DNA from: Siphonodentalium dalli
Lineage: Eukaryota > Mollusca > Scaphopoda > Gadilida > Siphonodentaliidae
Direction: 5' to 3'
Assembly: GCA_032622095.1 (NCBI GenBank)
Contig: CP136067.1
Coordinates: 200,988,681 to 201,052,680 of the forward strand
DNA: 64,000 nucleotides
Positions 13,112-52,631 of the stretch are shown in pieces. Below the pieces are notes generated by a model that had not been told where the DNA came from, did not search any database, and saw only the letters and a program-made list of their open reading frames with translations. Numbering within the stretch: the stretch's first letter is position 1; each line of letters begins with the position of its first letter. The position numbers and the translations under genes were made by a program.

Positions 13112-13278
13112 CTTCAAAATCATGTGGTGAAGAATAACTGCCAAACACAATCACCCGAAACTTCCGACAACAGTTCCACACTGGTAATCCAGGTAAAATA
13201 TTCGACACTTCCGATCTGTAGGTCGGTGGTTCCGTTCCACCATTGGCCACGACAGTCACGCGATTAGCGCCCTGCCTT
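13112..13278 (-). CDS. Possible exon with kelch-like motif (partial)
   Basis: A 167-bp minus-strand open segment lies between a plausible acceptor (CAATTCAG|A, AG ending at 13279) and a donor (GAAG|GTGAGA, GT at 13111-13110). It encodes RQGANRVTVVANGGTEPP..RSEV..ILPGLPVW, then FRVIVFGSYSSPHDFE. The pattern of a hydrophobic strand ending in GG or FG, a loop and then SEV..L resembles one and a half blades of a kelch/galactose-oxidase-like beta-propeller, which binds partner proteins. No neighbouring exon was found, so it may be an isolated exon of a long-intron gene or an exon relic. Confidence 0.35.
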
Positions 13279-14509
13279 CTGAATTGCTACATGATTCACA
13301 CAGCCAGCGTCATATCTCGATTTTTTTCTGAACAATCACAATGTTGCAAACATAATTTAAATTCGATTTACGTCCATGCTTTGTTTTGTCAGAGCTATTT
13401 CCGGCAGCAAACATCATCGTTGATGTCAGTCGATTGTATACTTTGATGTGGCACCCTGTCCAGTTGTCTTATAAGAGTTTGCATAAAGCACCCAATGCAA
13501 GAACAACTGCGCGGTTTGGTTGCCATTATACAATGCTCTGCTCATTCTTATCGTGATGCAGTTATATATGCTTACAGGGACCCAAGGCAATCACGATTGG
13601 TGAATGTGCAAACAGTATAAACTATAATCACCACTGAGAAGAACATTGGTAAATCGTTACTCGTTTTTCTTATATTCATCACTGATATCTCACAACTACA
13701 ACATTTTGAAACCATTGTTATGTAAACAAAACCGTTACCGTGATTTGTCAACACTGACACTGATATGCAAAATCACATTATTGAGAGTTATAAAACTTCG
13801 CAGTTTGCAGAGGATCAGGCTTGTTATCTGCCTCGAATAATTTAATCCGGAAAAAGGCTGCTCACGCGTAATGTGTTCGCCTTTCACTAGCTACTGTACA
13901 GATGTGGCTGTAAATAAAAAACGATACTGGTAATAGTTGATAAGCCAACCCATCATTATTCAGTTATGAATAATACTAATTTCGACCATTCTAAAACATG
14001 AACCGACATGCCATGTTAAGCCATACCATGAGAAAAGCTACATGTTTCACTAAAACTCTAATTTATGTACACGTAAAAGTAAAATATCTTAATGGCATAC
14101 TTTTTGGTATCACGTAAGGCGTGAATGTTTCCAGTCACTTGTAAACACAGTTGTTTTCAACAGGTGAATCCGTACATCATGGCAATACAGTACCAATCAG
14201 AAGAAGTGGTATTTTCAGGCGCACATTTATTGCGATATTGAGCGTGGTTAATGGCACAAAACAAAATATGTCATGCTTATTATTGCAATATTGAACGCAA
14301 AATATTGTGATATGAGCGCGCTAAATTTTATACAAATCCGATAGTGTTATATGTATATGAGATAAGTACTGTGCATATATTGTACATATAGTGTACATAT
14401 AGCATTTACAACTATAAGTATATACATATCTAAAACATTGTCTCTATATATACAATAAACAATATAGAAGAAGCAATACTTAAGTGCAAAATGTTGAGAT
14501 ATTAAGCGC
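13279..14509. other. No recognisable gene
   Basis: Only short open frames without signatures occur here. From about 14220 to 14330 the DNA repeats words of the following hairpin element in diverged form (TTATTGCGATATTGAGCG, AATATTG), suggesting an older related insertion. Confidence 0.45.
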
Positions 14510-14692
14510 AAAATATTGCAATAATATCACAAGCGACATGCATATAAGGCGTTTCCACTTGCAATTTTATTGCGATATTGGGCTCGAAAATAGCGCACAT
14601 TAAGTGCGCTATTTTCGAGCCCAATATCGCAATAAAATTGCAAGTGGAAACGCCTTATATGCATGTCGCTTGTGATATTATTGCAATATTTT
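14510..14692. repeat. Perfect 89-bp-arm hairpin (183 bp)
   Basis: Arm 14510-14598 and arm 14604-14692 are perfect inverted copies by eye, separated by ATTAA. Every pair sums to 29202. The arms contain GCGATATTGGGCTCGAAAATAG and end in the word TGCAATATTTT. No protein is encoded. Diverged relatives lie just upstream (about 14215-14330). A perfect stem suggests a very young fold-back element or a recent inverted duplication. Confidence 0.9.
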
Positions 14693-14734
14693 GACTGGTA
14701 CTGCATATCAATAACAGCTAGTTGGGATCTTCCA

Positions 14735-16110
14735 TGAAACTGTATACTGTAGAGGAGCGGTCTTGACCAGATTTTTTTTTTTATAATTTTTTTTTTTACA
14801 CACGGAAAAATTATATATCATATGAAAGTAGAAGATGTCGGCTTCATGTTCCGCCCTGCTGTAAAATGTGAAAGTGGTGCCGTTGCCATGGAAACGGAAT
14901 GTAAACAATGTAGACACATTTTGAGATAAAACCTTTTCAGCAAATGGTAAAAACTAATTTAATCCCATTCTAGGACAGGAACAGACGTTGAAGATCATTT
15001 GTTGATTATTTGTCCATTATAACCATGTTCCAACTATTCCAGTATTAAATAAGATGCAGATGTAGGTTATAAGGGTCTTTATTGCCATTTTGGGGTGAAA
15101 ATTGGTGATTTTTGCCAAAAATGCGATAATTTTGGAATTGGAGCATTTATTGGATACTACATTGGTTACAGTAATAATTTATGCATAATATGATGGCATC
15201 ATATGTGTACTTAAAATAAATCTGGATAAAACTGCCAAAAAGGCACAATACCATGAGAAATACCTGTTACCATGGTAACGATATTAAAAAATACAAAAAA
15301 TGCCTTTATTGGAAAGAAATGAAGTCCTCTAACCCTTGCGACACAATATAACTTTTTGAAATTTGTTTTCTATGACATGCAATTTTAATCTGGACTTCTG
15401 TGTTGTGTCATTGTTGCAGTTTATTCAGCTGTTGTCATGGAAACGGACCAAATTTCGTCAAATAATGATGTTTTTTCAATAAAGCTGACATTTAAAGCAT
15501 GTAATTTTATGAAGCAAAGCGTATTATGACAACCCGTTATAGATGTCTCAAAACCTGTTTCAACGATAACTATGTTCCAACTATTGAAGTAGTAAATATG
15601 AATCACATATAAGTTCTGAGGGTTTTAATGCCATTTTGAGGTGAAAAATTATGATTTTTCCAAAAAATTTGATAATTTTGGAATTGAAACATTTATTAGA
15701 TACTACATTGGTTACAGGAATAATTTATACATATTATGATGGCTTCTTACGTTTGCTTCAATCTGATTTTGATAAAACTGCCGAAAAAGCTCAATACCCT
15801 GAGAAATACCTATTACCATGGAAACGATATTGAAAAATACCAAAAAATGTCATTATTGGAAAGAAATGCGGCACAAATTAACTTTTTGAATGTTTTGTTC
15901 TATGACATGCACAATTAATCCAGACTTCTTTGTCGGATCACTGTTGCGGTTTATTCAGTTGTCATGGAAATGGACCAAATTTTGCCAAATAATGATATTT
16001 TCTCCTATAAACCGGACATTTAAAGTGTTCAATTTTATAAAGCAAAATAAATTTACCATTATGTGAATGCATTCTGACATATAATACTCATCATTTTATT
16101 CCCAATTTCT
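14735..16110. repeat. Interspersed family B, copy 1 (with an internal ~545-bp tandem duplication)
   Basis: The block runs from ACTGTAGAGGAGCGGTCTTGACCAG to about 16110. It is the reverse-orientation counterpart of 25590-26430 and shares a segment with 18818-19080. Inside, a ~545-bp segment is present twice: GCCATTTTGGGGTGAAAA at about 15080 and again at about 15630, followed both times by ATTTTGGAATTG and ACTACATTGGTTACAG. It has no coding content. X-box-like palindromes occur at 14882, 15266 (a perfect GTTACCATGGTAAC), 15431, 15812 and 15958. Confidence 0.75.
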
Positions 16111-16289
16111 CAGGTGTTTCTTTGAATTTGGACAAAAATTGTCGTTTAAATAGTGATATGTTTTGCACAATTGTTTTTTATTTTATCCGAAATTGTGTGA
16201 AAAATTAAGGGTATATTTAAAAACAAACATCACGTATCAGGAAAATGCAATAATAGGATTTCAAAAGATTCTCAGGTAATATATATCCG

Positions 16290-17540
16290 ATTAATATATC
16301 AATATGTGGTTAGTTTGTCAATAGATGCAGCTTCTTTGCAATTACTAGTATTTGGAGCTACTTTGTCAATATAATAGGTTACTTAGTCAATATATGCAGC
16401 TAATTTGTCAATATATTTTGTTAGTTAAGTCAATATATGCAGCTACTTTGTCAATATTTGTGGTTAGTTAGTCAATATGTGTAGCTCCTTTGCCATTATA
16501 TGCAGCTAATTTGTCAATATATGCAGCTACTTTGTCAATATATGCAGCTACTTTGCAATTCTATGCAGCTACGTTATCAATATATGTGGTTAGTTAGTCA
16601 ATATATGCAGCTACTTTGTCCATTAATTTGGTTAGTTAGTCAATAGATGCAACTTATTTGTCAATATATTCTGTTAGTTTGTCAATATATACATCTACAT
16701 TGTCAAAATGTGCAATTGCTTTGACAATATATGCAACTACTTTATGAATATATGTGGTTAATTAGTCATTATATGCAGCTACTTAGTCAATATATGTGGT
16801 TAGTTAGTCAATATATTCAGTTAATTTGTCAATATCTGTAGCTACTTAGTCGATATATGCAGCTAATTTGTCAATATTTGTGGTTAGTCAATATATGTAG
16901 CTGATTTGCCATTATATGCAGCTTATGTGTCAACATATGCAGCTAATTTGTCAATATATGCAGCTACTTTGCGAGTATATGCAACTACGTTATCAACATA
17001 TGTGGTTAGTTAGTCAATATATGCAGCAACTTTGTCGACTAATTTTGTTAGTTAGTCAATATATGCCGTTTTTTGTCAATATATGTGGTAGTTTGTCAAT
17101 ATATACATCTACTTTGTCAAAATATGCAATTTCGTTGACAATATATGCAGCTACGTTATCAATATATGTGGTTAGTTAGTGATTATGTGCAGCTACTTAG
17201 TCAATATATGTGGTTAGTTGGTCAATATATGTATCTACTTTGTCAAAATGTGCAATTGCTTTGACAATATATGCAGCTACTTTATCAATATAAAAAAGAA
17301 AGTCTGTTATAGACTAGTAATGGGACGGGACTCTGTCCGAAACAGCATCAACTCAACCGATATCCCAACTGTTGTGGACCGAGAAGACTTGGTCTACAGT
17401 ATATCCAGCTCATTGCTCTTGTCAATATATGTGGTTAGTTAGTCAATATATGAGGTTACTTCGTCAATATATGCTGTTACTTCACCAATATCAGCAGTGC
17501 ATTGCTCTTGCCAATATGTGTAAACAATTAGTCAATATAT
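16290..17540. repeat. ~1.2 kb array of 21-bp units
   Basis: Two alternating variants of a 21-bp unit fill the region: TTTGTCAATATATGCAGCTAC and AGTCAATATATGTGGTTAGTT. The period is a multiple of three, so long open frames such as the plus-strand one at 16916-17179 arise by chance and read as a repeated CQYMQL-type peptide. I do not regard these as genes. A non-repeat segment of about 115 bp (17290-17405) interrupts the array near its right end. Confidence 0.85.
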
Positions 17541-29160: not shown

Positions 29161-29403
29161 AAACATGATTCACATTCTTCTGTATGATACGAGAAACATA
29201 ATCGGTGCCGTGCCGTTTCGATGTTAGATGCATATGGGGGTCTACATTTAAATGTGTGTAGTCACCGGTTACCACCGAAACGTATACATATATACCTCCA
29301 TTCTATCAGGATTATAATCCTGTGATTTAAGGATGTCAAAGGTGGCGACGTTTGTGTCAGATGTGCATGTCGGGAAAGGGGCATTCAAATTGATATCCAT
29401 ATG
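29161..29403. repeat. Degenerate ~150-bp array unit (left of the palindrome)
   Basis: The sequence CTCCATTCTATCAGGATTATAATCCTGTGATTTAAGGATGTCAAA..., then GGGGCATTCAAATTGATA, is a diverged copy of the unit arrayed at 43648-44500. For example, 44205-44320 reads CCCCATGATACGAGGATTATAATAGTGTGATTTAAAGACGGCAAA, then GGGGCATTAAATTTGATA. The unit is cut by the palindrome at 29398-29403. Confidence 0.75.
29398..29403. repeat. Putative target-site duplication, left (CATATG)
   Basis: The left arm starts with CATATG. To its left the sequence (GATATC) no longer mirrors the right flank (TTTAGC). CATATG is self-complementary, so it can be counted either as arm or as a direct duplication. Confidence 0.55.
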
Positions 29404-29631
29404 TGATGATAAGGCCCCTGTTTGGGGGTATTTCAGGAACGATAACTCTATTCTCCGCAGTACTACCGTTGGAGTTTGACCTATATTCTCCGCCCACGCG
29501 TCGGTCTACTTGTACCGGTTGGACATGTCCGGACATGACCCGCTGGTTATATCCTGACTTTTCCATATGAATGGTATAGTATCTACATGTATATCACGTG
29601 ATGATCTCGGTGGGGTAGCTTCAGTCTTTAA

Positions 29632-29750
29632 TTTTAAAGGGACACTATAGGCTCTCACTGGGGATGATTATTAAAGTGACACTCACTATGGATGAATGTT
29701 AAAGTAACGCATGGCGCACACTGTGGGATAATGTTAAAGTGACACTCGCA
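29632..29750. repeat. Subterminal repeats, left arm
   Basis: Four spaced copies of a TTAAAGTGACACTC-like word start near 29634, 29671, 29699 (diverged to AAAGTAACGC) and 29733, about 28-37 bp apart, within 350 bp of the palindrome end. In DNA transposons such subterminal repeats are often transposase-binding sites. That role is only an analogy here. Confidence 0.6.
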
Positions 29751-29753
29751 TTG

Positions 29754-29972
29754 AAAACTTCAAAAAGTTCAAAAAGTTCAAAAAGTTCAAAAAGTTCAAA
29801 AAGTTCAAAAAGTTCAAAAATTTCAAAAATTTCAAAAAGTTCAAAAAGTTCAAAAATTTCAAAAACTTACAAAAGTTCAAAAATTTCGAAAAACTTCAAA
29901 AACTTAAAACAAATTCAAAAACTTAAAAAACTTCACAAATTTCACAAATTTCACAAATTTCAAAAAACTTAA
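29754..29972. repeat. 9-bp minisatellite (AAAAAGTTC)n, left arm
   Basis: AAAAAGTTC repeats with drift to AAAAATTTC and CACAAATTT toward the interior. The period of nine keeps a frame open that reads as repeated KSS, which I regard as spurious. Confidence 0.9.
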
Positions 29973-30090
29973 AAAATTAAACAAAATTCAGGATTTAGTC
30001 ATAAATGTGACCCGCTATATCAAATCCAGTCGGAAGTCGGGATTTTTTTTATCCTGTGCCAATGCATTCTCTTATATATGCGAGTCAACC

Positions 30091-30167
30091 AGCCGCCGCC
30101 GGCGGCGGCGGCAACTACATAATCCTATGGCATGCAAAGAAATTGGCGGCGGCGCTGCCGCCGGCGG
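30091..30167. repeat. GC-rich inverted repeat, left arm
   Basis: Two (GCC/GGC)n blocks, AGCCGCCGCCGGCGGCGGCGG and TTGGCGGCGGCGCTGCCGCC, flank about 35 bp. The pair sits between two direct copies of TTCAGGATTTAGTCA (about 29990 and 30168). It stands out against AT-rich surroundings and lies 150-230 bp beyond the 3' end of the arm's main ORF. Confidence 0.75.
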
Positions 30168-30317
30168 TTCAGGATTTAGTCAAAAATATGGCTTGTTTCC
30201 ATTCATCGGATAGCTATGGGGGTACGGTGGTGAGCGCCACTGAAAAAAGCAAGTGAGCGAGGGAAAAAAGAGAAAAATAACATGACAAGTAGTACATAGT
30301 ACAATTTATTATATTAA

Positions 30318-31016
30318 CTATTCACAGTCACTTTCGTCCGAATTGTCATCAAAGGAATCAACCTTTTTTATTTTTAATGAAGAATCACCATAACTCCATA
30401 CTATTCCAAATGTCCATACGAGTTCATAATCTAAATCTGAAACAGGTCTAGTGTTTTTTACAATATAATCCAAAGACACTTTTTCTTCAAATAACTTTTC
30501 AACAGTGAAAATTGTACATGGTTCTCGGAGAATAATGTATCCATATATTCTCGTCACCTCTTCGAATTTCAAAGTTTTTTCATTGAGAATCCTGTCTTGA
30601 TATTCAGCAAAGCGAGTAAAATTATTTCCAACTAATTCACGAATTGCGTTTATTTCGTTTTTAGGAACACCATGAAATATCCAATAATCTGAAAACATTT
30701 GATCCAATATATCCATTAAGAAATCAGTTTCAAATTCTGATCTCTCAATCAAACATCTCAGTCGACTCTGTCCCTCAGAGAAATGTCCGTTTAGCAAAGT
30801 CTCCATTATAATTCTACTTTCCCTCGAAAACCAAGCTTGCTTAAGTTCTTGTTTGATTTCTTGATCCATTTTTGACATTTCGATCAAATTATTATAAATT
30901 TTCAAAAGCATCTCTGCTGGTAACACATCAATTCCATCCATAAGGAATTGTGTTGTATTCACCCACAACAAGTCGTTTGGTGTACACAGATCGGAATGTT
31001 TTTGTTTGCTCTTCAC
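30318..31016 (-). CDS. Palindrome ORF A, left copy, unknown protein
   Basis: The frame is open for 232 codons and points outward, from the palindrome centre toward its left end. The first codon of the maximal frame is GTG, so translation would start at the first ATG (30941, 207 codons) or the frame continues a spliced upstream exon: an AATTAG acceptor-like site lies just before it. The protein would be hydrophilic, mainly helical and acidic, ending in DSFDDNSDESDCE. Near the ATG, VLPAEMLLKIYNNL weakly resembles the start of an F-box (LPxE...I...L). That is too little to assign. There is no signal peptide or membrane segment. An AATAAA-like site follows the stop. The arms leave the copy identical to the right one. 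The codon usage looks protein-like, but function is unknown. Confidence 0.5.
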   Translation of the reverse strand: MKSKQKHSDLCTPNDLLWVNTTQFLMDGIDVLPAEMLLKIYNNLIEMSKMDQEIKQELKQAWFSRESRIIMETLLNGHFSEGQSRLRCLIERSEFETDFLMDILDQMFSDYWIFHGVPKNEINAIRELVGNNFTRFAEYQDRILNEKTLKFEEVTRIYGYIILREPCTIFTVEKLFEEKVSLDYIVKNTRPVSDLDYELVWTFGIVWSYGDSSLKIKKVDSFDDNSDESDCE

Positions 31017-32329
31017 TAATTACTTCTCGGTTCTTTGTGCGTTTAATTATGCAGCCAACTTCACATCGTAACAATAATAAAAGGGACACTTCATCTATAT
31101 CAGTCTCAAAACGTGTTGGTACACATCTGTGTGGAAACTAAAACCAATCACTCTTCGTCCGTCATCCGTACATAATTGTAATATGATTTTCTCAGAAACC
31201 ACGGGATCCCTTTGGCTGAAATTTGGTCTCAACATGGGATCAGAAATTATCCATGGAAGACAACAGTGTCCGTGTGGGGAGAAGCTTCGTAGTGTTTCGC
31301 TGTCGCCATGGTGTTTGTTTGGGTATAGGCATGGGTGGTGAGTGTGGTTCTCATATGGTCTGAACTAGCCTTTACTGACTGAGGTCATTTAGTGCACATG
31401 TCATCACTTCACTGATAACCATTATATGGTCAAATCCCTACAATATCAAACGCAATGTTTCAATAATGGGTTTTCTTAAAATTTTGACTAAATATTGGTT
31501 ATATTATACGCATCAGCGATCCTTCTTAATAACGCTCTGTATATTTTCAAACGCATTGCACTAAATGGGTTTGGAATAGCCATACAGGAAAGGAGAAACT
31601 GAGGTCCTGGGTAGGTCGACTGCATATAGCAGTATATATGGGATACAGACATGGACAGCAATGGGTTCCTCGTGGCTTCTGGCCTACACATGACATATTA
31701 AAGTTAACCACACCCATCGGCGCGCCTTTAATGGGCTATGAAGCGCCATACAGGCTCGAACCATGGCCTTCGCCATGTGTTTCTATTTGAACCCACATTA
31801 GTAACTAAATAAAATCTTTCTCTCCAGGCTGTTTCACGCCATAACCTTGATTTGGAAAGCTTGAAGGGCTAATTAAGCTTCACTTTAAATCCCAACATTA
31901 TTTGAAGAACGTATCTGGTTAAACATGTCCACCATAGTAAGCTCATTTAATTCAAAGAGCTTCACACATAGTCCCACTAGTAATGATGTGTCGTTATTTA
32001 CTGCAGAAATGGTCATATAGAATACAATACAACACATTTTGGTCACATACCTTAAAGGTGCACGTCACTTTCGCAAGATATCGAACTGACCATGTATAGA
32101 GTGGAATGACATGTCGGGTATCAAATGTATAATCAGTTCCAGTATTTCGTCCATAAGGCAGTTTTTGGTTGTAACATCATTGTGTATGACGGTTCATTCA
32201 TATGATACCTTAGCGGTTGCACACGATACTGTCTGTTGTATTTTATGTCTTATATCATGTATATTAATTGCTCTATGGATGGTAGGAGTATGGCACTGGT
32301 GTCTGGTTCTTCGATGTATTCCAGTCATA
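31017..32329. other. Palindrome left arm, unstructured part
   Basis: No domain or tandem repeat is visible. The sequence has its exact mirror at 40716-42028. Short open frames here also appear mirrored and carry no signature. Confidence 0.5.
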
Positions 32330-33720
32330 GTTCATTCATATTATTACTCTAAAATATCCATTAAATGGAGAAACTAAAGAGCCCATATTATGTAGACTAG
32401 TGTATAAATACTTACTTCATGCATTATTTTCATCAATTATATGTATTATAACTCCCATCAAGATAGGCTGTTATACAGAGGAAACAAAGCATGTACCAAG
32501 TGACAGTCTGTACCAAGTGACAGTCTCATGTCACGAAAGGCCTACTATGTGGACACATTTTCTTATCAAAACGCTCTATTATGTAGGGGGTTATCAACCA
32601 TTGGTCTGGAAAAGGCATACGAGCGGAACGCGTGTATACACATTTATTCGATGTACTCTTTAATCGTCGATTTCTCTTTATTGTAGTTAATTTATAGCAT
32701 TATTAGTAGGAATCTAAACTCGCCGTTATATTGAGAAAATAATGCGTCAATACCAGTCAATACTGCTTTATTGGCGTTAAATGAAATTATTGAATCATGT
32801 ATCGCAGCTAAACAAGCGAGACAACTGATCAGAACACAAAAATTAGTAATATTTCTGAAGCCTTGAGTGGTTTGTAATACACAGTGTAAATTTTCATTAT
32901 TGCTACCATTTAAGGAAACATGCCCCCGATAGGGCTACTATGCGAACACATATCTATATTAATTTCACATATTCCTTACCGTTCATTCATATATACTCCA
33001 AGCTCTCTGTTAATACAGAGGCATCAAAACATTGGTATGGAAAAGACCTACTATGTGGATGCGTGTATACATATTTACTTGATGTATTCTTTAATCGTTC
33101 ATTTCTCTTTATTATCGTTCATTTATAGTATTATTAGAAGAAATTTAGTCTAAAATCTCCATTACATGGAGACAATAAAGAGCCCATATGGTGTAGACTA
33201 ATGCATAAATACTTCATGTATTCTTTTCACCAATTATATGTATTGTACATCCTATACATTTAGTCCGTTATACAGAGGAAACAAAGCATGTACTACGTGG
33301 CAGTTTCATATGACGATAAGACCTACTATGTGACACATGTGCATATTAATTTCACATATTCTTCTCAAAACGCTCTATTTTATACGGGGGTATCAAACAT
33401 TGGTCTGGAAAAGGCCTGCTATGTGGACGCGTGTATACATATTGACTTCATATATGCATTCATAGTTCATTTCTCTTAATTGTCGTTCATTTAATAGCAT
33501 TATTAGTAGAAATATAGTCTAAAACCGTCGGTATATGGAGAATATATAGCGTCAATACTGTTTTATTGTTGGTAACTCAAATTATTGCATCATGTATCGC
33601 AACCAAACAAGCGAGACAACTCATAAATTCTTAATAGTTCTGATGTCTATGGCAGTTTACAGAGTGTATATTTTCATTGTTGTTACCATTTTAGTGCATA
33701 CATTACTGATTTCTGTGTAA
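32330..33720. repeat. Degenerate ~400-bp tandem repeat, left arm
   Basis: A unit with ACAGAGG...CAAA.CATTGG, GGAAAAG..C.TACTATGTGGA, GCGTGTATACATATT, TTTCTCTTTATT and TAGCATTATTAGTAGAAAT recurs near 32630, 33061 and 33430 (those positions mark the GTGTATACA word). TTATACAGAGGAAACAAAGC occurs at about 32470 and 33268. The copies are strongly diverged from each other but identical to their mirror copies in the right arm. Confidence 0.7.
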
Positions 33721-34984
33721 GAACGCTGGTCTCCATTGTTGTTATGATTGTGCCTATAACTGTCCATATTCTTAAAGCAAGTACGGTACCTCTATGTGAT
33801 ATGATGTATAAAAATTTCCATTTTCACAGGTAAATCACGTATAAACGCTCTTTAATGTATAGTTAAACTGAGTTTCACATGCAGGGCTATGTCTTTGTGG
33901 GCTATATCCGTGGTATACTTCAGTATATACACGAAGTGAATGTGTTCTAAGTATGCGTATCTGACTTATGTATACGTCCGTGTTTCTTAAAGCAAATCCA
34001 ATACATATTAGTGCGTTATATTATGATGTACATTAAGTGCCCTTTTCACTGTTAAATCAAGTAAAAAAGCCCTCTACTATAGTTAACTATTCAGTTCCAC
34101 ATACGCTATAAGCTCTATGGTGATCCGGTGTGTCTTATCAATATGCCATTATATGCACGAATGTAATGTGTTCAAATATGTGGGTTATGATGTATACTTT
34201 AATGTTAAAGTATATAAGCACTCTTTAAAATATGCATATGCAGAATGTTGCCTCTTTACACTGACAGAAAAAAAAAGGAATATATAATTTTGAGTACTAC
34301 TCTTCATAAAACGTTAGAAAACCATAATCTAACAACGAATATCGAAGAACAATGTAATTACTTGATAAGCATTGTAAATATTTCGTCTGTTTTAAATAAA
34401 ATGGAAATATTTCGTCTATTTGAAATACAGTTGGAAGCAACAATCAAGTATTTAAATGAAATTTGGACCAAAATCTTATAATTTGAGAAAACGTATATAA
34501 TTTCTATCGAAGTCTTATAATAAAGGAAGGCTTTGTGCGAATCCATTCGGTCTAATGTGTGAACGTGTTCATCATCGCAAATATAATGATGCAGAAATGA
34601 ATATTTCCTAGAAAAATGTTAACATAGCTTGTATTTAACCGAAATAATATAGCATTTGAGTTAAAATGTTTCATATTAGGACCATAACGAACCAATGCAT
34701 AAAAATACAATATTTTGTTTTTCATTCTCGATCAAAATAATGCAGAGTTGTCAATTATCAACAAAAAACAAATACTTTGAAACAAAAACGATGACATAAG
34801 AACGAATATCCAAGAGCTAGTGTGAAAATAACCCTCACATTTATAAAAAAAAACAATAAAAATTCAGTTTTCGAGTAAGTCCTTCAAAATTATTGAATGT
34901 TTTCGTCTATGTTGGATCAAATTTGACACAAAAATCAATTAGCTCACTAACAGTTCGCGCAATCTCATATTTTGAGAAAACGTT
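33721..34984. other. Palindrome left arm, unstructured part
   Basis: This part has no recognised gene. Three of the substitutions I noticed between the arms fall here: 34123 (A, partner 38922), 34564 (C, partner 38481) and 34701 (A, partner 38344). Confidence 0.5.
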
Positions 34985-36068
34985 TGCAATTTTAGACAAC
35001 AATATTGCTAGTGAAGGTGAATATTTCATCCTGGAACTCATGAAATATGATAAAAATAGATGTAAAGACACTTCACGAGCCCTCATATCTTTGAGTTATG
35101 AACATAAAGTCATCTCATAGTGCCATTGTACCCCATAATTTGGGCAGGAGAAATATGTATTTCATATTTGACCCTTCATCTATGGTAAAAACTGAATTAA
35201 GGGACATGGGAGTGGTGTCCTAGACATTAACCTAGAGCATAAATTGACTCAATTTTGCAATTTTAGGCAACATTCTTGCCAGGGAAAGTGTATATTTCAT
35301 GTTGGAACTCATCAAATGTGATAAACATGCATCAAAAGACACTTACTGAGCTCTGATGACTTTGAGTTATGACAACAACGGCATCTCATACTAGATTGTT
35401 AGCCATAATTTGGTCAGGAAAAGTGTAAATTTCATATTTTATCCTACATGTGTTTTAACAATCAATGTAATTACACCCCATCGGTCGCCTAGACACAGCG
35501 TAAATGTTCTCAAGTTTTCAACTGTAGGCCACAATGTCGGCAGTGAAGGTAAACATTTCATGTTGGAACCCATGAAATGTGATAAAATGGATAAAAAGAC
35601 ACTTCGTGAGTACTTATGACTGAGTTATGAACATAAAGGGACCTCATAGTGTATTGTAGCTCATAATTTGGTCAGGAAAATTGTAAATTTCATGTCTTAA
35701 GCTCCATGTGTTTTAAAAATATATTTAATTACAGCCATTGGGTCCCTAGAGATCAATCCACAGTCCATATGTAGTCCATATGCAATTTTAGGGAACAGTA
35801 TTGCTAGTGAAGGTGAACATTCCATGCTGGAACTCATGAAATATGATAAAAATAGATGAAAAGACACTTTCTGAGGCCTTGGTCAGGAGAAATGTGTATT
35901 GTATTTTGACCCTTGATGCGTGGTAGCAATCAATGAAATTACACCCCATGGTATCCTCAGATATGAAGCAACATCATAAATGCACTCAGTTTTGGCAATT
36001 TAGAAAACATTGTTGATAGGGAAGTTGTACATGTCATGTTGGAACTGGTGAAATGTGATAATAATTGA
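34985..36068. repeat. Degenerate ~260-bp tandem repeat, left arm
   Basis: About five diverged copies of a unit containing AATTTTAG.CAACA.T...GCTAGTGAAGGTGAA, TTTCATG.TGGAACTCATGAAAT, AAAGACACTTC, GAGTTATGAACATAAAG and CATAATTTGGTCAGGAAAA. In the mirror arm the GTGTCTTT word falls at 36968, 37178, 37444, 37701 and 37974. Confidence 0.8.
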
Positions 36069-36287
36069 TCAAAAGACACTCGTTAAGCCCTGATGGGTTT
36101 CAATTATGGTCATAAAGGCATCTGATAGTGTCATTATACAACGGGGAAATTTGTGAAGCGCTAACAAAGCGTATCTGCACGGTGTTATACGATCCAAAAT
36201 GATCCTGATATAAGAAATGCAATCTAGATCATACTCAGTATCTTCGTATCGACTGAATATATCGTTATTCGATGGTGTTCCTGACAT
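36069..36287 (-). CDS. Palindrome ORF B, left copy, unknown small protein or first exon
   Basis: The frame starts at an ATG (36287) 222 bp from the spacer, points outward and is open for 72 codons. Its first half is acidic and protein-like (MSGTPSNNDIFSRYEDTEY, then DLDC). The second half overlaps the edge of the ~260-bp array, so the true coding part may be only a first exon. It is co-oriented with ORF A in the same arm. A TATA-like TTTATAATA lies between it and the centre (36434-36442 on this arm). No family is recognised. Confidence 0.35.
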   Translation of the reverse strand: MSGTPSNNDIFSRYEDTEYDLDCISYIRIILDRITPCRYALLALHKFPRCIMTLSDAFMTIIETHQGLTSVF

Positions 36288-36508
36288 ACCTCCGTCTTTA
36301 CTTTTCTTATGCCTTTGTAGATTGTAGTTCTTCGATAATATATTTCTGCACCAATGGCACCCGTGTATTGTCTCGAATCATGGGAAGAACTATCGTCCTT
36401 ATACCAGCGAAAAGATGAGCGAATATGGTGTGGTATTATAAACTCGCCGCGTTCGTACCTCTATTTATCGTTTAGAGTTATTGTTCTTAGATAAAAAAAA
36501 TAGGCGCG

Positions 36509-36536
36509 GCGGCAGTGGGGATGAGGGGGCCGCACG
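36509..36536. other. GC-rich 28-bp spacer at the palindrome centre
   Basis: The arms cease to pair after 36508/36537. The inner 6-bp pairs (36503-36508 with 36537-36542) are preceded by one mismatch (36502/36543). The spacer is nearly all G and C (GCGGCAGTGGGGATGAGGG and on), unlike the AT-rich arms. It does not match any sequencing-adapter sequence I know. Confidence 0.85.
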
Positions 36537-36602
36537 CGCGCCAATTTTTTTTATCTAAGAACAATAACTCTAAACGATAAATAGAGGTACGAACGCGGCG
36601 AG

Positions 36603-36611
36603 TTTATAATA
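36603..36611 (+). promoter_or_regulatory. TATA-like site near the palindrome centre (mirrored at 36434-36442)
   Basis: AGTTTATAATACC occurs about 70 bp outward from the spacer in each arm and about 150 bp before the ATG of ORF B. The two mirrored copies would form a divergent promoter driving both arms outward. This rests on position and sequence likeness only. Confidence 0.3.
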
Positions 36612-36757
36612 CCACACCATATTCGCTCATCTTTTCGCTGGTATAAGGACGATAGTTCTTCCCATGATTCGAGACAATACACGGGTGCCATTGGTGCAGA
36701 AATATATTATCGAAGAACTACAATCTACAAAGGCATAAGAAAAGTAAAGACGGAGGT

Positions 36758-36976
36758 ATGTCAGGAACACCATCGAATAACGATATATTCAGTCGATACG
36801 AAGATACTGAGTATGATCTAGATTGCATTTCTTATATCAGGATCATTTTGGATCGTATAACACCGTGCAGATACGCTTTGTTAGCGCTTCACAAATTTCC
36901 CCGTTGTATAATGACACTATCAGATGCCTTTATGACCATAATTGAAACCCATCAGGGCTTAACGAGTGTCTTTTGA
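36758..36976 (+). CDS. Palindrome ORF B, right copy
   Basis: Exact mirror of the left ORF B: ATG at 36758, 72 codons, acidic N-terminal half, outward orientation. It lies 222 bp from the spacer and about 5 kb upstream of ORF A on the same strand, so the two could be a first and a later exon of one transcript. I could not confirm a matching donor/acceptor pair. Confidence 0.35.
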   Translation: MSGTPSNNDIFSRYEDTEYDLDCISYIRIILDRITPCRYALLALHKFPRCIMTLSDAFMTIIETHQGLTSVF

Positions 36977-38060
36977 TCAATTATTATCACATTTCACCAG
37001 TTCCAACATGACATGTACAACTTCCCTATCAACAATGTTTTCTAAATTGCCAAAACTGAGTGCATTTATGATGTTGCTTCATATCTGAGGATACCATGGG
37101 GTGTAATTTCATTGATTGCTACCACGCATCAAGGGTCAAAATACAATACACATTTCTCCTGACCAAGGCCTCAGAAAGTGTCTTTTCATCTATTTTTATC
37201 ATATTTCATGAGTTCCAGCATGGAATGTTCACCTTCACTAGCAATACTGTTCCCTAAAATTGCATATGGACTACATATGGACTGTGGATTGATCTCTAGG
37301 GACCCAATGGCTGTAATTAAATATATTTTTAAAACACATGGAGCTTAAGACATGAAATTTACAATTTTCCTGACCAAATTATGAGCTACAATACACTATG
37401 AGGTCCCTTTATGTTCATAACTCAGTCATAAGTACTCACGAAGTGTCTTTTTATCCATTTTATCACATTTCATGGGTTCCAACATGAAATGTTTACCTTC
37501 ACTGCCGACATTGTGGCCTACAGTTGAACACTTGAGAACATTTACGCTGTGTCTAGGCGACCGATGGGGTGTAATTACATTGATTGTTAAAACACATGTA
37601 GGATAAAATATGAAATTTACACTTTTCCTGACCAAATTATGGCTAACAATCTAGTATGAGATGCCGTTGTTGTCATAACTCAAAGTCATCAGAGCTCAGT
37701 AAGTGTCTTTTGATGCATGTTTATCACATTTGATGAGTTCCAACATGAAATATACACTTTCCCTGGCAAGAATGTTGCCTAAAATTGCAAAATTGAGTCA
37801 ATTTATGCTCTAGGTTAATGTCTAGGACACCACTCCCATGTCCCTTAATTCATTTTTTACCATAGATGAAGGGTCAAATATGAAATACATATTTCTCCTG
37901 CCCAAATTATGGGGTACAATGGCACTATGAGATGACTTTATGTTCATAACTCAAAGATATGAGGGCTCGTGAAGTGTCTTTACATCTATTTTTATCATAT
38001 TTCATGAGTTCCAGGATGAAATATTCACCTTCACTAGCAATATTGTTGTCTAAAATTGCA
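36977..38060. repeat. Degenerate ~260-bp tandem repeat, right arm
   Basis: Mirror of 34985-36068. Two of the noticed substitutions lie here: 37529 (C, partner T at 35516; it changes Phe to Cys in an overlapping minor frame) and 37853 (T, partner C at 35192). Confidence 0.8.
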
Positions 38061-39324
38061 AACGTTTTCTCAAAATATGAGATTGCGCGAACTGTTAGTG
38101 AGCTAATTGATTTTTGTGTCAAATTTGATCCAACATAGACGAAAACATTCAATAATTTTGAAGGACTTACTCGAAAACTGAATTTTTATTGTTTTTTTTT
38201 ATAAATGTGAGGGTTATTTTCACACTAGCTCTTGGATATTCGTTCTTATGTCATCGTTTTTGTTTCAAAGTATTTGTTTTTTGTTGATAATTGACAACTC
38301 TGCATTATTTTGATCGAGAATGAAAAACAAAATATTGTATTTTAATGCATTGGTTCGTTATGGTCCTAATATGAAACATTTTAACTCAAATGCTATATTA
38401 TTTCGGTTAAATACAAGCTATGTTAACATTTTTCTAGGAAATATTCATTTCTGCATCATTATATTTGCGATGATGAACACATTCACACATTAGACCGAAT
38501 GGATTCGCACAAAGCCTTCCTTTATTATAAGACTTCGATAGAAATTATATACGTTTTCTCAAATTATAAGATTTTGGTCCAAATTTCATTTAAATACTTG
38601 ATTGTTGCTTCCAACTGTATTTCAAATAGACGAAATATTTCCATTTTATTTAAAACAGACGAAATATTTACAATGCTTATCAAGTAATTACATTGTTCTT
38701 CGATATTCGTTGTTAGATTATGGTTTTCTAACGTTTTATGAAGAGTAGTACTCAAAATTATATATTCCTTTTTTTTTCTGTCAGTGTAAAGAGGCAACAT
38801 TCTGCATATGCATATTTTAAAGAGTGCTTATATACTTTAACATTAAAGTATACATCATAACCCACATATTTGAACACATTACATTCGTGCATATAATGGC
38901 ATATTGATAAGACACACCGGACCACCATAGAGCTTATAGCGTATGTGGAACTGAATAGTTAACTATAGTAGAGGGCTTTTTTACTTGATTTAACAGTGAA
39001 AAGGGCACTTAATGTACATCATAATATAACGCACTAATATGTATTGGATTTGCTTTAAGAAACACGGACGTATACATAAGTCAGATACGCATACTTAGAA
39101 CACATTCACTTCGTGTATATACTGAAGTATACCACGGATATAGCCCACAAAGACATAGCCCTGCATGTGAAACTCAGTTTAACTATACATTAAAGAGCGT
39201 TTATACGTGATTTACCTGTGAAAATGGAAATTTTTATACATCATATCACATAGAGGTACCGTACTTGCTTTAAGAATATGGACAGTTATAGGCACAATCA
39301 TAACAACAATGGAGACCAGCGTTC
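38061..39324. other. Palindrome right arm, unstructured part
   Basis: Mirror of 33721-34984, no gene recognised. Confidence 0.5.
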
Positions 39325-40715
39325 TTACACAGAAATCAGTAATGTATGCACTAAAATGGTAACAACAATGAAAATATACACTCTGTAAACTGCCATAGAC
39401 ATCAGAACTATTAAGAATTTATGAGTTGTCTCGCTTGTTTGGTTGCGATACATGATGCAATAATTTGAGTTACCAACAATAAAACAGTATTGACGCTATA
39501 TATTCTCCATATACCGACGGTTTTAGACTATATTTCTACTAATAATGCTATTAAATGAACGACAATTAAGAGAAATGAACTATGAATGCATATATGAAGT
39601 CAATATGTATACACGCGTCCACATAGCAGGCCTTTTCCAGACCAATGTTTGATACCCCCGTATAAAATAGAGCGTTTTGAGAAGAATATGTGAAATTAAT
39701 ATGCACATGTGTCACATAGTAGGTCTTATCGTCATATGAAACTGCCACGTAGTACATGCTTTGTTTCCTCTGTATAACGGACTAAATGTATAGGATGTAC
39801 AATACATATAATTGGTGAAAAGAATACATGAAGTATTTATGCATTAGTCTACACCATATGGGCTCTTTATTGTCTCCATGTAATGGAGATTTTAGACTAA
39901 ATTTCTTCTAATAATACTATAAATGAACGATAATAAAGAGAAATGAACGATTAAAGAATACATCAAGTAAATATGTATACACGCATCCACATAGTAGGTC
40001 TTTTCCATACCAATGTTTTGATGCCTCTGTATTAACAGAGAGCTTGGAGTATATATGAATGAACGGTAAGGAATATGTGAAATTAATATAGATATGTGTT
40101 CGCATAGTAGCCCTATCGGGGGCATGTTTCCTTAAATGGTAGCAATAATGAAAATTTACACTGTGTATTACAAACCACTCAAGGCTTCAGAAATATTACT
40201 AATTTTTGTGTTCTGATCAGTTGTCTCGCTTGTTTAGCTGCGATACATGATTCAATAATTTCATTTAACGCCAATAAAGCAGTATTGACTGGTATTGACG
40301 CATTATTTTCTCAATATAACGGCGAGTTTAGATTCCTACTAATAATGCTATAAATTAACTACAATAAAGAGAAATCGACGATTAAAGAGTACATCGAATA
40401 AATGTGTATACACGCGTTCCGCTCGTATGCCTTTTCCAGACCAATGGTTGATAACCCCCTACATAATAGAGCGTTTTGATAAGAAAATGTGTCCACATAG
40501 TAGGCCTTTCGTGACATGAGACTGTCACTTGGTACAGACTGTCACTTGGTACATGCTTTGTTTCCTCTGTATAACAGCCTATCTTGATGGGAGTTATAAT
40601 ACATATAATTGATGAAAATAATGCATGAAGTAAGTATTTATACACTAGTCTACATAATATGGGCTCTTTAGTTTCTCCATTTAATGGATATTTTAGAGTA
40701 ATAATATGAATGAAC
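39325..40715. repeat. Degenerate ~400-bp tandem repeat, right arm
   Basis: Mirror of 32330-33720, with the same three diverged units in reverse order. Confidence 0.7.
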
Positions 40716-42028
40716 TATGACTGGAATACATCGAAGAACCAGACACCAGTGCCATACTCCTACCATCCATAGAGCAATTAATATACATGATATAAGACAT
40801 AAAATACAACAGACAGTATCGTGTGCAACCGCTAAGGTATCATATGAATGAACCGTCATACACAATGATGTTACAACCAAAAACTGCCTTATGGACGAAA
40901 TACTGGAACTGATTATACATTTGATACCCGACATGTCATTCCACTCTATACATGGTCAGTTCGATATCTTGCGAAAGTGACGTGCACCTTTAAGGTATGT
41001 GACCAAAATGTGTTGTATTGTATTCTATATGACCATTTCTGCAGTAAATAACGACACATCATTACTAGTGGGACTATGTGTGAAGCTCTTTGAATTAAAT
41101 GAGCTTACTATGGTGGACATGTTTAACCAGATACGTTCTTCAAATAATGTTGGGATTTAAAGTGAAGCTTAATTAGCCCTTCAAGCTTTCCAAATCAAGG
41201 TTATGGCGTGAAACAGCCTGGAGAGAAAGATTTTATTTAGTTACTAATGTGGGTTCAAATAGAAACACATGGCGAAGGCCATGGTTCGAGCCTGTATGGC
41301 GCTTCATAGCCCATTAAAGGCGCGCCGATGGGTGTGGTTAACTTTAATATGTCATGTGTAGGCCAGAAGCCACGAGGAACCCATTGCTGTCCATGTCTGT
41401 ATCCCATATATACTGCTATATGCAGTCGACCTACCCAGGACCTCAGTTTCTCCTTTCCTGTATGGCTATTCCAAACCCATTTAGTGCAATGCGTTTGAAA
41501 ATATACAGAGCGTTATTAAGAAGGATCGCTGATGCGTATAATATAACCAATATTTAGTCAAAATTTTAAGAAAACCCATTATTGAAACATTGCGTTTGAT
41601 ATTGTAGGGATTTGACCATATAATGGTTATCAGTGAAGTGATGACATGTGCACTAAATGACCTCAGTCAGTAAAGGCTAGTTCAGACCATATGAGAACCA
41701 CACTCACCACCCATGCCTATACCCAAACAAACACCATGGCGACAGCGAAACACTACGAAGCTTCTCCCCACACGGACACTGTTGTCTTCCATGGATAATT
41801 TCTGATCCCATGTTGAGACCAAATTTCAGCCAAAGGGATCCCGTGGTTTCTGAGAAAATCATATTACAATTATGTACGGATGACGGACGAAGAGTGATTG
41901 GTTTTAGTTTCCACACAGATGTGTACCAACACGTTTTGAGACTGATATAGATGAAGTGTCCCTTTTATTATTGTTACGATGTGAAGTTGGCTGCATAATT
42001 AAACGCACAAAGAACCGAGAAGTAATTA
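40716..42028. other. Palindrome right arm, unstructured part
   Basis: Mirror of 31017-32329. A GGTTCGAGCC word near 41286 resembles a pol III B box, but no A box or tRNA fold accompanies it. Confidence 0.5.
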
Positions 42029-42727
42029 GTGAAGAGCAAACAAAAACATTCCGATCTGTGTACACCAAACGACTTGTTGTGGGTGAATACAACACAATTC
42101 CTTATGGATGGAATTGATGTGTTACCAGCAGAGATGCTTTTGAAAATTTATAATAATTTGATCGAAATGTCAAAAATGGATCAAGAAATCAAACAAGAAC
42201 TTAAGCAAGCTTGGTTTTCGAGGGAAAGTAGAATTATAATGGAGACTTTGCTAAACGGACATTTCTCTGAGGGACAGAGTCGACTGAGATGTTTGATTGA
42301 GAGATCAGAATTTGAAACTGATTTCTTAATGGATATATTGGATCAAATGTTTTCAGATTATTGGATATTTCATGGTGTTCCTAAAAACGAAATAAACGCA
42401 ATTCGTGAATTAGTTGGAAATAATTTTACTCGCTTTGCTGAATATCAAGACAGGATTCTCAATGAAAAAACTTTGAAATTCGAAGAGGTGACGAGAATAT
42501 ATGGATACATTATTCTCCGAGAACCATGTACAATTTTCACTGTTGAAAAGTTATTTGAAGAAAAAGTGTCTTTGGATTATATTGTAAAAAACACTAGACC
42601 TGTTTCAGATTTAGATTATGAACTCGTATGGACATTTGGAATAGTATGGAGTTATGGTGATTCTTCATTAAAAATAAAAAAGGTTGATTCCTTTGATGAC
42701 AATTCGGACGAAAGTGACTGTGAATAG
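42029..42727 (+). CDS. Palindrome ORF A, right copy, unknown protein
   Basis: This copy is identical to the left ORF A and points outward (toward the right end). The maximal frame opens at GTG 42029. The first ATG is at 42104, giving 207 residues. AATTAG directly before 42029 could be a splice acceptor. The acidic tail DSFDDNSDESDCE precedes the TAG, and an ATAATAAATTG polyadenylation-like site follows within 20 bp. It is the longest open frame in the whole window and the only one of its length without a stop or frameshift. That, together with its exact duplication, makes it the best candidate for an element-encoded protein. No catalytic motif is visible. Confidence 0.5.
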   Translation: MKSKQKHSDLCTPNDLLWVNTTQFLMDGIDVLPAEMLLKIYNNLIEMSKMDQEIKQELKQAWFSRESRIIMETLLNGHFSEGQSRLRCLIERSEFETDFLMDILDQMFSDYWIFHGVPKNEINAIRELVGNNFTRFAEYQDRILNEKTLKFEEVTRIYGYIILREPCTIFTVEKLFEEKVSLDYIVKNTRPVSDLDYELVWTFGIVWSYGDSSLKIKKVDSFDDNSDESDCE

Positions 42728-42877
42728 TTAATATAATAAATTGTACTATGTACTACTTGTCATGTTATTTTTCTCTTTTTTCCCTCGCTCACTTGCTTTT
42801 TTCAGTGGCGCTCACCACCGTACCCCCATAGCTATCCGATGAATGGAAACAAGCCATATTTTTGACTAAATCCTGAA

Positions 42878-42954
42878 CCGCCGGCGGCAGCGCCGCCGCC
42901 AATTTCTTTGCATGCCATAGGATTATGTAGTTGCCGCCGCCGCCGGCGGCGGCT
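42878..42954. repeat. GC-rich inverted repeat, right arm
   Basis: Mirror of 30091-30167. Confidence 0.75.
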
Positions 42955-43072
42955 GGTTGACTCGCATATATAAGAGAATGCATTGGCACAGGATAAAAAA
43001 AATCCCGACTTCCGACTGGATTTGATATAGCGGGTCACATTTATGACTAAATCCTGAATTTTGTTTAATTTT

Positions 43073-43291
43073 TTAAGTTTTTTGAAATTTGTGAAATTTG
43101 TGAAATTTGTGAAGTTTTTTAAGTTTTTGAATTTGTTTTAAGTTTTTGAAGTTTTTCGAAATTTTTGAACTTTTGTAAGTTTTTGAAATTTTTGAACTTT
43201 TTGAACTTTTTGAAATTTTTGAAATTTTTGAACTTTTTGAACTTTTTGAACTTTTTGAACTTTTTGAACTTTTTGAACTTTTTGAAGTTTT
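43073..43291. repeat. 9-bp minisatellite, right arm
   Basis: Mirror of 29754-29972, read here as (GAACTTTTT)n. The identical copy number in both arms matters, because minisatellites normally change length quickly. Confidence 0.9.
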
Positions 43292-43294
43292 CAA

Positions 43295-43413
43295 TGCGAG
43301 TGTCACTTTAACATTATCCCACAGTGTGCGCCATGCGTTACTTTAACATTCATCCATAGTGAGTGTCACTTTAATAATCATCCCCAGTGAGAGCCTATAG
43401 TGTCCCTTTAAAA
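43295..43413. repeat. Subterminal repeats, right arm
   Basis: Mirror of 29632-29750: GAGTGTCACTTTAA words spaced about 28-37 bp. Confidence 0.6.
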
Positions 43414-43641
43414 TTAAAGACTGAAGCTACCCCACCGAGATCATCACGTGATATACATGTAGATACTATACCATTCATATGGAAAAGTCAGGATATAACC
43501 AGCGGGTCATGTCCGGACATGTCCAACCGGTACAAGTAGACCGACGCGTGGGCGGAGAATATAGGTCAAACTCCAACGGTAGTACTGCGGAGAATAGAGT
43601 TATCGTTCCTGAAATACCCCCAAACAGGGGCCTTATCATCA

Positions 43642-43647
43642 CATATG
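43642..43647. repeat. Putative target-site duplication, right (CATATG)
   Basis: The right arm ends in CATATG and is followed by TTTAGCGCCGAG. Joining the left flank to this point restores an array unit without a gap (see findings). Confidence 0.55.
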
Positions 43648-50242: not shown

Positions 50243-52631
50243 TAATTATAGCGAACGAGATGTAGCACTATTGGCAGTGGCGAATCGATTCTGGTTGCTT
50301 TCTACTCGAGACGTAGCACTTTTCGCAGTAGATTGAACTTGATTATGGTTGGTTTCCACCGGTATGCATTGCAGAATCTCTGAATAACGTTTCTTCTGTG
50401 TTGTCGTTGAGTCTGTATTATACGATCGTATAAATTGTTCACACCTATGGTTTCTATTCCTGCATGCGACAGCAGAGTTACCGTTGTTGCCCAAACACAA
50501 TAGTGTGTATAAACCTTGCTTAGTTTAGCTAAGTGTGATATCAATTTCATCAACTTCTCGATAGTGTGGACGTCTATCGGTCTCCGTTCATACCACACCA
50601 ATGTAGTGTCTGGTTCGAATGATGATAACATTCTTGGCTTCTGTAAGAGGAAAACACAATCAGTATGTAATTTAGACACGTATAATTGGTATGATTTTAA
50701 AGGGCAGTTTTCCTTTCCTGATTCATACATCCTCCATTTTGGTGCGTTGCCATCTTTGGTGGACCCTGGCCTGGTTTTTGTGCCTCGTTGTACTTCATTT
50801 CCAGATAACGATGAGCATTTCCATCTTCTTTCACACAATAATCCTCTTTCTTTAAACTGCGGATGTTTTCCCTGCCTCGTCGACCAAAATTCAGAGTTAT
50901 GTGAAACCAGACCTTCCCCTGCAGAGCTGTATAATTTGATTGGTCAAACACTGAACCCGATTTAATAGCCATCTCTCCCAATAGCTTTTGCGAATCATTC
51001 TGGCATATTGCATCATGGTGCTTTGAAACGTGTTTACCATCGCGTTTCAATAATTTCAAGACACTCAAAAACATATTATTTGATCTGTTGAATTCCGAAT
51101 CTGTAGCAATATTAATGTTTCTTTCAAATGGAGGACTCCTCAGATGGCGATTTATCGATGCTCGTAATCCGATCATAGCTGACTTTCCATAGGTTTCTTT
51201 TCTGTTTGTTCGGATCTCTGCATAGAACCGCCTCAGCAAATAGTCAAGTCCAGCAACATTCAGATCTTCGAAATCTTCTCTCATTCAATTTGCTGTCAAC
51301 CATTCTGAAATTGAAATGTAATTTGTTTCATTGCATTAATTGTAAATATGTTGAAACAGAGAGTTTTGAAACATAAATTTATTTCTGTGAAAAGTCGCAT
51401 GCGGCAATCTGATTAAATCAATTGTTTTGTGGTACAATTTTATTTTTTCAGATTGTACCACAAAAAAAAATTGTGGTTCACTCTGAAAACATTTAATTGT
51501 ACCTGAAACAATTTAATTGTACCACAAAACTGGATTGAGATATATGTTGTATGAGACTATCAGTATGCTTACTTTTGAAGTGTCCGATGCCCCATTTTGT
51601 GTTCCCCTTTAGTATTTAGACTGTCTTTTGCAGAAACCATGCATTCCATTTCTTGTTCAGTTAATCTGCGAAATCGGTCATCTGTTGAATCTTGAAATAA
51701 CAATTTGGAAGAAAATAACATTTTGGTATGAATCTATGATGCCTGATTTTAATAACAGCAAAAAATTGTTTTGGCTCTATTTTTTTATTTAACTCTTAAG
51801 AAATAAAGACACAATTCAGAGGCGTGTATGGTAATGTAATAACAATATTTTAAGACAGCAATTTTCTTTCACATTTATGTTCTGCATTGGAAAATAATGC
51901 TTCCATCATTCAAGAAACACTTAAGAAATAAATACCACTTGTCAAATGCCCCAGTACATACCTCTGTAGCTATATCATAGTGTACAGCTGTTGAACTTGA
52001 AGAGGAACCAATATGGGTCTGGAATGTTGCATATTCAGTTGTAGTTCTACGTGTAATTGTTGGGTTGGGAACCGTTGGTTGGGCTGTGGTGCAGCTGGCC
52101 TTAGTCTGAGTAATACCTCCACCTGTTTGCCTTGTGTTCACACTTTCAAGCTGAAATATGGAGAAGTCCTGTTGATTTAGACCCTATTTGTTTTTTGTTG
52201 TTTAATTGTTATTCCAATGCAAAATACATAATTACTTGTGTATTACTGAATACTTGTACAGTGGTAGGCCTACTGGTAGAAATTAAATAGCTCTACCATA
52301 AATAATTTTGGAATTTCCAACTTAATTTATTTAAATTATTTTTGAAATCTGATGTGATCATTTAAATTCCATGATATTTTAAATACAGGGATCAGTGCGA
52401 TACATCATAATGATTCATAATATGACCAACATAAAGGAAAGCCTATATCATATGCATAGCATTCAGAATATTTATTGTAATAAAGTTATTATTTTGAGAA
52501 AAAATATTTATGTATTGTACCATGTTGACTTCTGTCTCAAATTCGCTGTCGGTACTGTCCCGTGGAATGTCCATACCATACTCAGAGTCTCTGATATTAC
52601 TGCCTTCCAATTCCATTGTGAAATTTGCCAT
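50243..52631 (-). pseudogene. Four-exon Crypton-like tyrosine recombinase gene, decayed
   Basis: I read four minus-strand exons. E1 is 52631-52521 (37 codons, MANFTMELEG..., donor G|GTACAA). E2 is 52150-51962 (63 codons, acceptor TTTCAG, donor GAG|GTATGT). E3 is 51690-51573 (SAKDSLNTKGEHKMGHRTLQ, donor A|GTAAGC). E4 begins at 51304 (acceptor CAATTTCAG). E1-E2 and E3-E4 phases agree; E2-E3 do not. E4 encodes the DUF3504-type recombinase: LRRFYAEIRTNRKETYGKS, LRASINRHLRSPPF, VWFHITLNFGRRGRENI, CPLKSYQLYVSKL, DTTLVWYERRPI and IRSYNTDSTTTQ with the likely nucleophile Tyr. It is dead: a TGA at 51283-51281, frameshifts near 50770 and 50460, and the usual HxxR box appears as HYCVWAT, so both the His and Arg positions look replaced. 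A domesticated host gene that later died is an alternative to a transposon copy. Confidence 0.8.
51427..51536. repeat. ~110-bp TGTGGTACAA palindromic insertion in intron 3
   Basis: TGTGGTACAATTTTATTTTT...AGATTGTACCACAAAA, followed by AATTGTACC words ending in AATTGTACCACAAAA, lies inside the intron between E3 and E4 of the Crypton-like gene. A related sequence at 54046-54110 lacks it. Confidence 0.65.

Follow-up and report, generated by a model that had tools for sequence, protein, structure and literature searches.

How a near-perfect palindrome of some 14 kb comes to lie in a chromosome, where extended perfect palindromes are believed to persist only briefly, is the question raised by the stretch of DNA analysed here (64,000 nucleotides, C7:200988681-201052680, hereafter the window). 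By searching the whole 2.23-Gb genome, assembled in nine chromosome-sized contigs, we find that the palindrome is one of hundreds of mobile elements that appear to be built and spread as palindromes.

The symmetry was computed over the window by pairing position i with 73045-i, and it runs from 29398 to 36508 in the left half, far beyond chance. Six arm mismatches are present (34123, 34564, 34701, 35192, 35516 and 36502, the last near the centre) where the preliminary description had counted five, while its statements that the arms differ by no net insertion or deletion (we find zero indels), that a 28-bp spacer separates them and that a 9-bp minisatellite keeps its length in both were borne out. 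The palindrome of 14.25 kb that it reported is real and symmetric over 29398-43647, but it included the terminal 6 bp at either end, CATATG, a sequence palindromic in itself. Since the tips TGATGATA...TATCATCA recur in other copies with differing 6-bp target-site duplications (TSDs), and since an empty site has one CATATG, we assign this hexamer to the TSD and the element proper to 29404-43641. The features are as follows.

29404-43641, no strand: palindromic mobile element, 14,238 bp (symmetry, tips, empty site)
29404-36508, + strand: left arm, 7,105 bp (symmetry)
36537-43641, - strand: right arm, 7,105 bp, mirroring the left arm with six differences
36509-36536, no strand: non-palindromic 28-bp spacer or hairpin loop region (symmetry), centre of the predicted hairpin described below
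29398-29403, + strand: TSD, left copy, CATATG (6-bp TSDs in other copies too)
43642-43647, + strand: TSD, right copy, CATATG (tips and empty site)
29404-29430, + strand: left tip TGATGATAAGGCCCCTGTTTGGGGGTA, common to Polintons (genome tip-pattern matches, end comparisons)
43615-43641, - strand: right tip, inverted copy of the left tip (end comparisons)
36508-36533, + strand: conserved centre motif GGCGGCAGTGGGGATGAGGGGGCCGC (genome pattern matches; at element midpoints)
29754-29966, + strand: 9-bp minisatellite AAAAGTTCA, left arm
43079-43291, - strand: 9-bp minisatellite, right arm, of equal length
30318-31016, - strand: ORF of 232 aa, of no Pfam, PHROG or PDB family (multicopy in the genome)
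42029-42727, + strand: mirror of the 232-aa ORF (ORF and symmetry)
36069-36377, - strand: stop-to-stop frame of 102 aa with a C2H2-like motif and no Pfam match; mirror at 36668-36976 (+ strand)

The arms thus hold only the 232-aa orphan ORF, the short zinc-finger-like frame and non-coding arrays. Genes for an rve integrase, PolB, an ATPase or a capsid protein were not found in them, and a search of the window against Rfam gave no match. Nothing credible was returned for the 232-aa ORF from Pfam, PHROGs, PDB, viral contigs or phage records, and a single-sequence AlphaFold model of the protein was uninformative (mean pLDDT 46). Across six copies of the ORF, three of them old, dN/dS was 0.6-1.4 where computable, with no clear purifying selection between old and young copies.

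The preliminary description had proposed a genome-wide search for further copies of the arm, and the search found them: the arm recurs as palindromes on C5 and C8, within other flanks. Exact 6-bp TSDs lie directly outside the tips in all three copies (CATATG in the window, ATCGGA on C5, AATACA on C8). The C5 copy has a centre identical to that of the window and carries, in just one of its arms, a 3.8-kb single-copy insert. The C8 copy, of 11.1 kb, has a one-sided 410-bp loop that continues one arm and is without the 232-aa ORF, its arms being at 0.6% divergence. Adding ten further elements (nine exact, one with a single mismatch) to these three gave 13 with both ends compared. In 12 of these the two 6-bp TSDs are identical, in one case beyond an additional TGA at the tip; in the remaining element 5 of 6 positions agree. 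Moreover, an unoccupied paralogous site lies 2.3 Mb away (C7:203366360-203366853): when the flanks of the window element are joined by one CATATG, all 500 bp align to it at 97% identity, and the sequence there runs straight through the single CATATG. Because the TSDs flank the entire palindrome and the empty site holds none of it, the palindrome itself was inserted; it is a genuine mobile element of recent insertion.

The tips define a large dispersed family, whose ends are common to Polintons; neither the family nor these ends figured in the preliminary description. Allowing up to 2 mismatches, the tip pattern gave 522 genome matches against 4 for a reversed control, and inward-facing neighbouring tips among the listed matches yielded 38 elements of 1.6-18 kb, many of them about 14 kb. 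Some tip-bearing elements are non-palindromic (e.g. L063), so a palindrome is not required for mobility. The 232-aa ORF is present in at least 150 near-complete genome copies, 60 of which form inverted pairs; most are open, at 85-100% identity. A GC-rich centre motif, GGCGGCAGTGNGG-(2-8)-GGNGGCCGC, has 240 exact matches in the genome and none for the reversed pattern. In the best-preserved elements it marks the midpoint: among the 11 tip pairs holding this motif it lies within 15 bp of the midpoint in seven and is displaced by 176-408 bp in the other four, as one-sided deletion would be expected to produce. It recurs between different flanking arms (C8:18M and C8:160M), and no integrase-bearing tip pair among those covered by the list of centre matches contains it. 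As single-stranded DNA, the window centre is predicted to fold into a hairpin of -23.3 kcal/mol (z -7.2).

An integrase is encoded close to one end of other elements that have these tips and 6-bp TSDs. One such Polinton (C5:73754313-73769040, 14.7 kb, TIR 130 bp, TSD AGTCGG), its gene content judged from end pieces, gave Pfam matches to rve integrase (6e-11), a TBP-like protein (3.2e-15) and a PC4-like protein (2.3e-13), together with an A32-like ATPase fragment below cut-off (0.084). At its other end lies a 562-aa ORF whose relatives in sister families adjoin genes for a protein-primed polymerase (PF03175), as at C6:81566911, beside the polymerase at C6:81569372; by analogy with these sister families, the tip-sharing Polintons would have a polymerase of this kind. 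The integrase end exists in about 28 copies at 98-99% identity, and most integrase matches in the genome are free of stops. A candidate helper with apparently intact genes, the polymerase presumed from its sister families, is therefore present in the same genome.

The window element and the Polintons have a common tip motif, and the Polinton tip matches the palindrome arms of the C8 copy and of element L065 at 94-96% over about 107 bp. For the C5 Polinton described above, the match to palindrome arms is limited to the terminal ~110 bp. Among the best 150 matches each for the 232-aa ORF and the integrase, none of the ORF copies is located within a Polinton that bears an integrase. Since the cis-acting ends are common and the core genes absent, the palindromes are best called satellites rather than Polintons. 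We note, as a point against the interpretation proposed below, that the bulk of the window arms does not derive from the Polinton read, and that the founding event of the window lineage was not seen.

We also compared arms over about 3.1 kb in six palindromes of the 14-kb class. The mean arm difference was 0.14% within an element against 0.76% between elements, in keeping with the recent origin or arm-to-arm homogenisation suggested in the preliminary description. The differences between elements fall in blocks, with the same version in both arms of each element: the window and C5 copies are set apart by the initial ~43 bp of the tip and are otherwise almost the same, and in the C8 copy an unrelated 1.1 kb replaces the ORF zone, alike in both arms. 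The one exception is a pair of elements on C3, 0.5 Mb apart, whose arms intermix. Because the difference within elements is smaller than that between them, and because the block differences are the same in both arms, we infer that the arms are equalised, or copied from one arm, at each multiplication. Replication through a hairpin would equalise the arms as part of every round, and conversion after insertion may contribute to arm identity as well.

Inverted duplications are also found among the Polintons. At C3:112390802-112403702 both ends are the same 4.9-kb integrase end, and a like duplication, of the opposite Polinton end, occurs at C3:283553769-283567785. Several pairs of integrase ends are mirror-placed around midpoints at differing points of the Polinton (about 327, 602, 1,240 and 1,260 in L067), and at these midpoints a single-copy stretch continues one arm. 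This form, in which one end is duplicated in inverted orientation around a single-copy loop from one arm, is that of the integrase-end palindromes and of the C8 satellite; the window element has the conserved 28-bp centre instead. The loop geometry is consistent with, though no proof of, a displaced strand folding back and priming on itself, and could also arise by asymmetric deletion at the centre of a palindrome. Inversion of the spacer between flip and flop orientations was considered as a sign of hairpin transfer and dropped, because with identical arms such inversion looks the same as insertion in either direction.

We propose, with a probability of about 0.77, that the window element is a non-autonomous palindromic satellite of a Polinton (Maverick) family, which owes its symmetry to hairpin (snapback) replication and its insertion to the Polinton integrase. 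Protein-primed strand-displacement replication of the Polinton type would release a single strand, which would fold back on itself at the GC-rich hairpin in its centre, forming a 7.1-kb duplex that is open at a single Polinton end. Copying from the open end and round the loop would then restore the full palindrome, which would be integrated anew with a 6-bp TSD, most likely by the rve integrase acting in trans. Folding would re-homogenise the arms in every cycle, by mismatch repair in the hairpin or by copying of one arm, and new palindromes could arise through snapback of a Polinton strand somewhere within its length.

Several other explanations have to be weighed against this one. Perfect inverted repeats are a known error of long-read assembly, and the evidence here comes from the assembly alone, so that the false joining of a read or contig to its reverse complement has to be considered; the preliminary description had allowed for such an inverted-read artefact. 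We give this almost no credence. The same arms lie on C5 and C8 in other flanks with exact TSDs of their own, the insert on C5 and the loop on C8 each affect one arm only, and the window copy has an empty site; with independent copies, their TSDs and the empty site, an artefact is excluded for practical purposes. The palindromes might instead form once per locus after insertion, by inverted duplication in place and chromosomal gene conversion, and the greater likeness of arms within than between elements would fit this. It is nevertheless improbable, and contradicted for the window copy, given that the TSDs enclose the whole palindrome, that no part of it is present at the empty site, and that the C5 and window copies share identical centre and arms.

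Two further explanations invoke a transposase. A Foldback-type DNA transposon (FB, Galileo, Foldback MULEs) with extremely long TIRs, mobilised by a cut-and-paste transposase, either its own or a related one, is very improbable: the TSD is 6 bp here against the 7-9 bp of Galileo and FB, the tips are common to integrase-bearing Polintons, their kin encode an rve integrase rather than the P-type transposase of the superfamily to which Galileo belongs, and no transposase was detected in the arms. What speaks for it are long TIRs that contain tandem arrays and leave hardly any unique centre, as described for Galileo (PMC3688188). An autonomous transposon with the 232-aa protein as a new kind of transposase would account for the abundance of that ORF, its mostly open copies, their frequent inverted pairing and their lack of a known family. 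This too is improbable, as the C8 copy moved without the ORF, which is thus not needed in cis, the dN/dS values reveal no clear purifying selection, and the tips belong to Polintons.

Going beyond the satellite reading that we prefer, the palindromes might, at somewhat less than even odds, be seen as a lineage of satellite viruses: hundreds of palindromic genomes with a dedicated, conserved GC-rich turn-around hairpin, which would be replicated by the Polinton polymerase, packaged in Polinton capsids, integrated as palindromes and free to exchange tips and gene modules. Packaging in Polinton capsids is speculative; a hint comes from size, 11 palindromes being of 13.4-15.2 kb and the six Polintons measured of 14.1-15.1 kb. 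The size match is only partial, as palindromes of ~5-11 kb occur too. To our knowledge, the replication mode of Polintons has never been directly seen. If snapback replication holds, the palindromes record that mode (protein-primed, with hairpin intermediates) and would be genomes, either defective or satellite, that a virus-like element has left to be inherited, with possible interference with the helper and a possible role as a source of double-stranded RNA.

The preliminary description knew of no named transposon made of two long inverted repeats, and none turned up in the literature searched, although viral parallels exist. That literature, with most subscription papers outside its reach, contained no report of palindromic Polinton/Maverick families or of adenovirus SYREC DNA. 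The nearest relatives are the Polinton/Maverick (adintovirus-like) elements, which have the same tips, a 6-bp TSD, a length of ~14-15 kb, an rve integrase and, in kin, an A32-like ATPase; unlike them, the window element is without core genes, is palindromic throughout and has only terminal sequence in common with the Polinton read. Foldback transposons resemble it in their very long TIRs, internal arrays and little unique centre, but differ in TSD length and transposase, have far shorter arms and bear unrelated tips. Symmetric recombinants of adenovirus, or inverted duplications of its left end, are large palindromes too, flanked at left and right by one and the same protein-capped viral end, but they are virion DNA from cell culture and not a dispersed genomic family. 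A works-like parallel is offered by the snapback subgenomic (defective interfering) genomes of AAV, double-stranded molecules that derive from one or the other end of a linear viral genome and behave as satellites (PMC8235507). These arise by the rolling hairpin of a parvovirus and not from a Polinton, and they form no inherited chromosomal family with TSDs such as the palindromes described here.

The terminal sequences (tips) common to the palindromic satellites and the integrase-bearing Polintons also bound short elements without a palindrome, of 2.2 kb and with a TIR of ~190 bp, at four loci:

C2:44708151-44710560 (L063), short tip-bearing element
L012, L017 and L036, likewise short tip-bearing elements

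The product of the single gene in the L063-type elements is a fusion in which a C2H2-like region is joined to an A32-like packaging ATPase (Pox_A32 1.9e-6), and its C-terminal tail, DESDSE, resembles the DESDCE tail of the 232-aa ORF in the arms of the window palindrome. Elsewhere, tips in the same orientation recur head-to-tail every ~3.04 kb with constant flanks (C1:59885939, C2:214060012-214066126 and C3:68704926-68711062); these series are tandem arrays with one tip per unit. Among tip versions (window 29404-29430 and loci L011-L040) the G/C runs co-vary, as in GGCCCC-TGTTT-GGGG and CCGCC-TGTTT-GGTGG, as if a small near-tip hairpin were retained.

The C5 palindrome, a copy of the window element, carries a 3.8-kb insertion in one arm only (12550-16335 of joined L006-L008, C5:211604550-211608335), which shows that equalisation of the arms is incomplete after an element has inserted. 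Judged by eye, the window also contains ORFs like non-LTR reverse transcriptase (2888-4195, +) and like Crypton-derived tyrosine recombinase genes (50302-51284, −; 10346-11688, +).

In the tip-sharing Polinton family and one sister family the polymerase-side ORF occurs as inverted pairs (C9:120245209/120248084, C5:262278816/262280651 and C3:70579905/70588203), possibly snapbacks of the Polinton end opposite the integrase. From Pfam matches, the tip-sharing family appears to carry two further genes:

L067:3951-4484, −, TBP-like gene adjoining the integrase (Pfam TBP, 3.2e-15)
L066:3247-3765, −, PC4-like transcription coactivator (2.3e-13)

To our knowledge, such cargo is out of the ordinary among Polintons.
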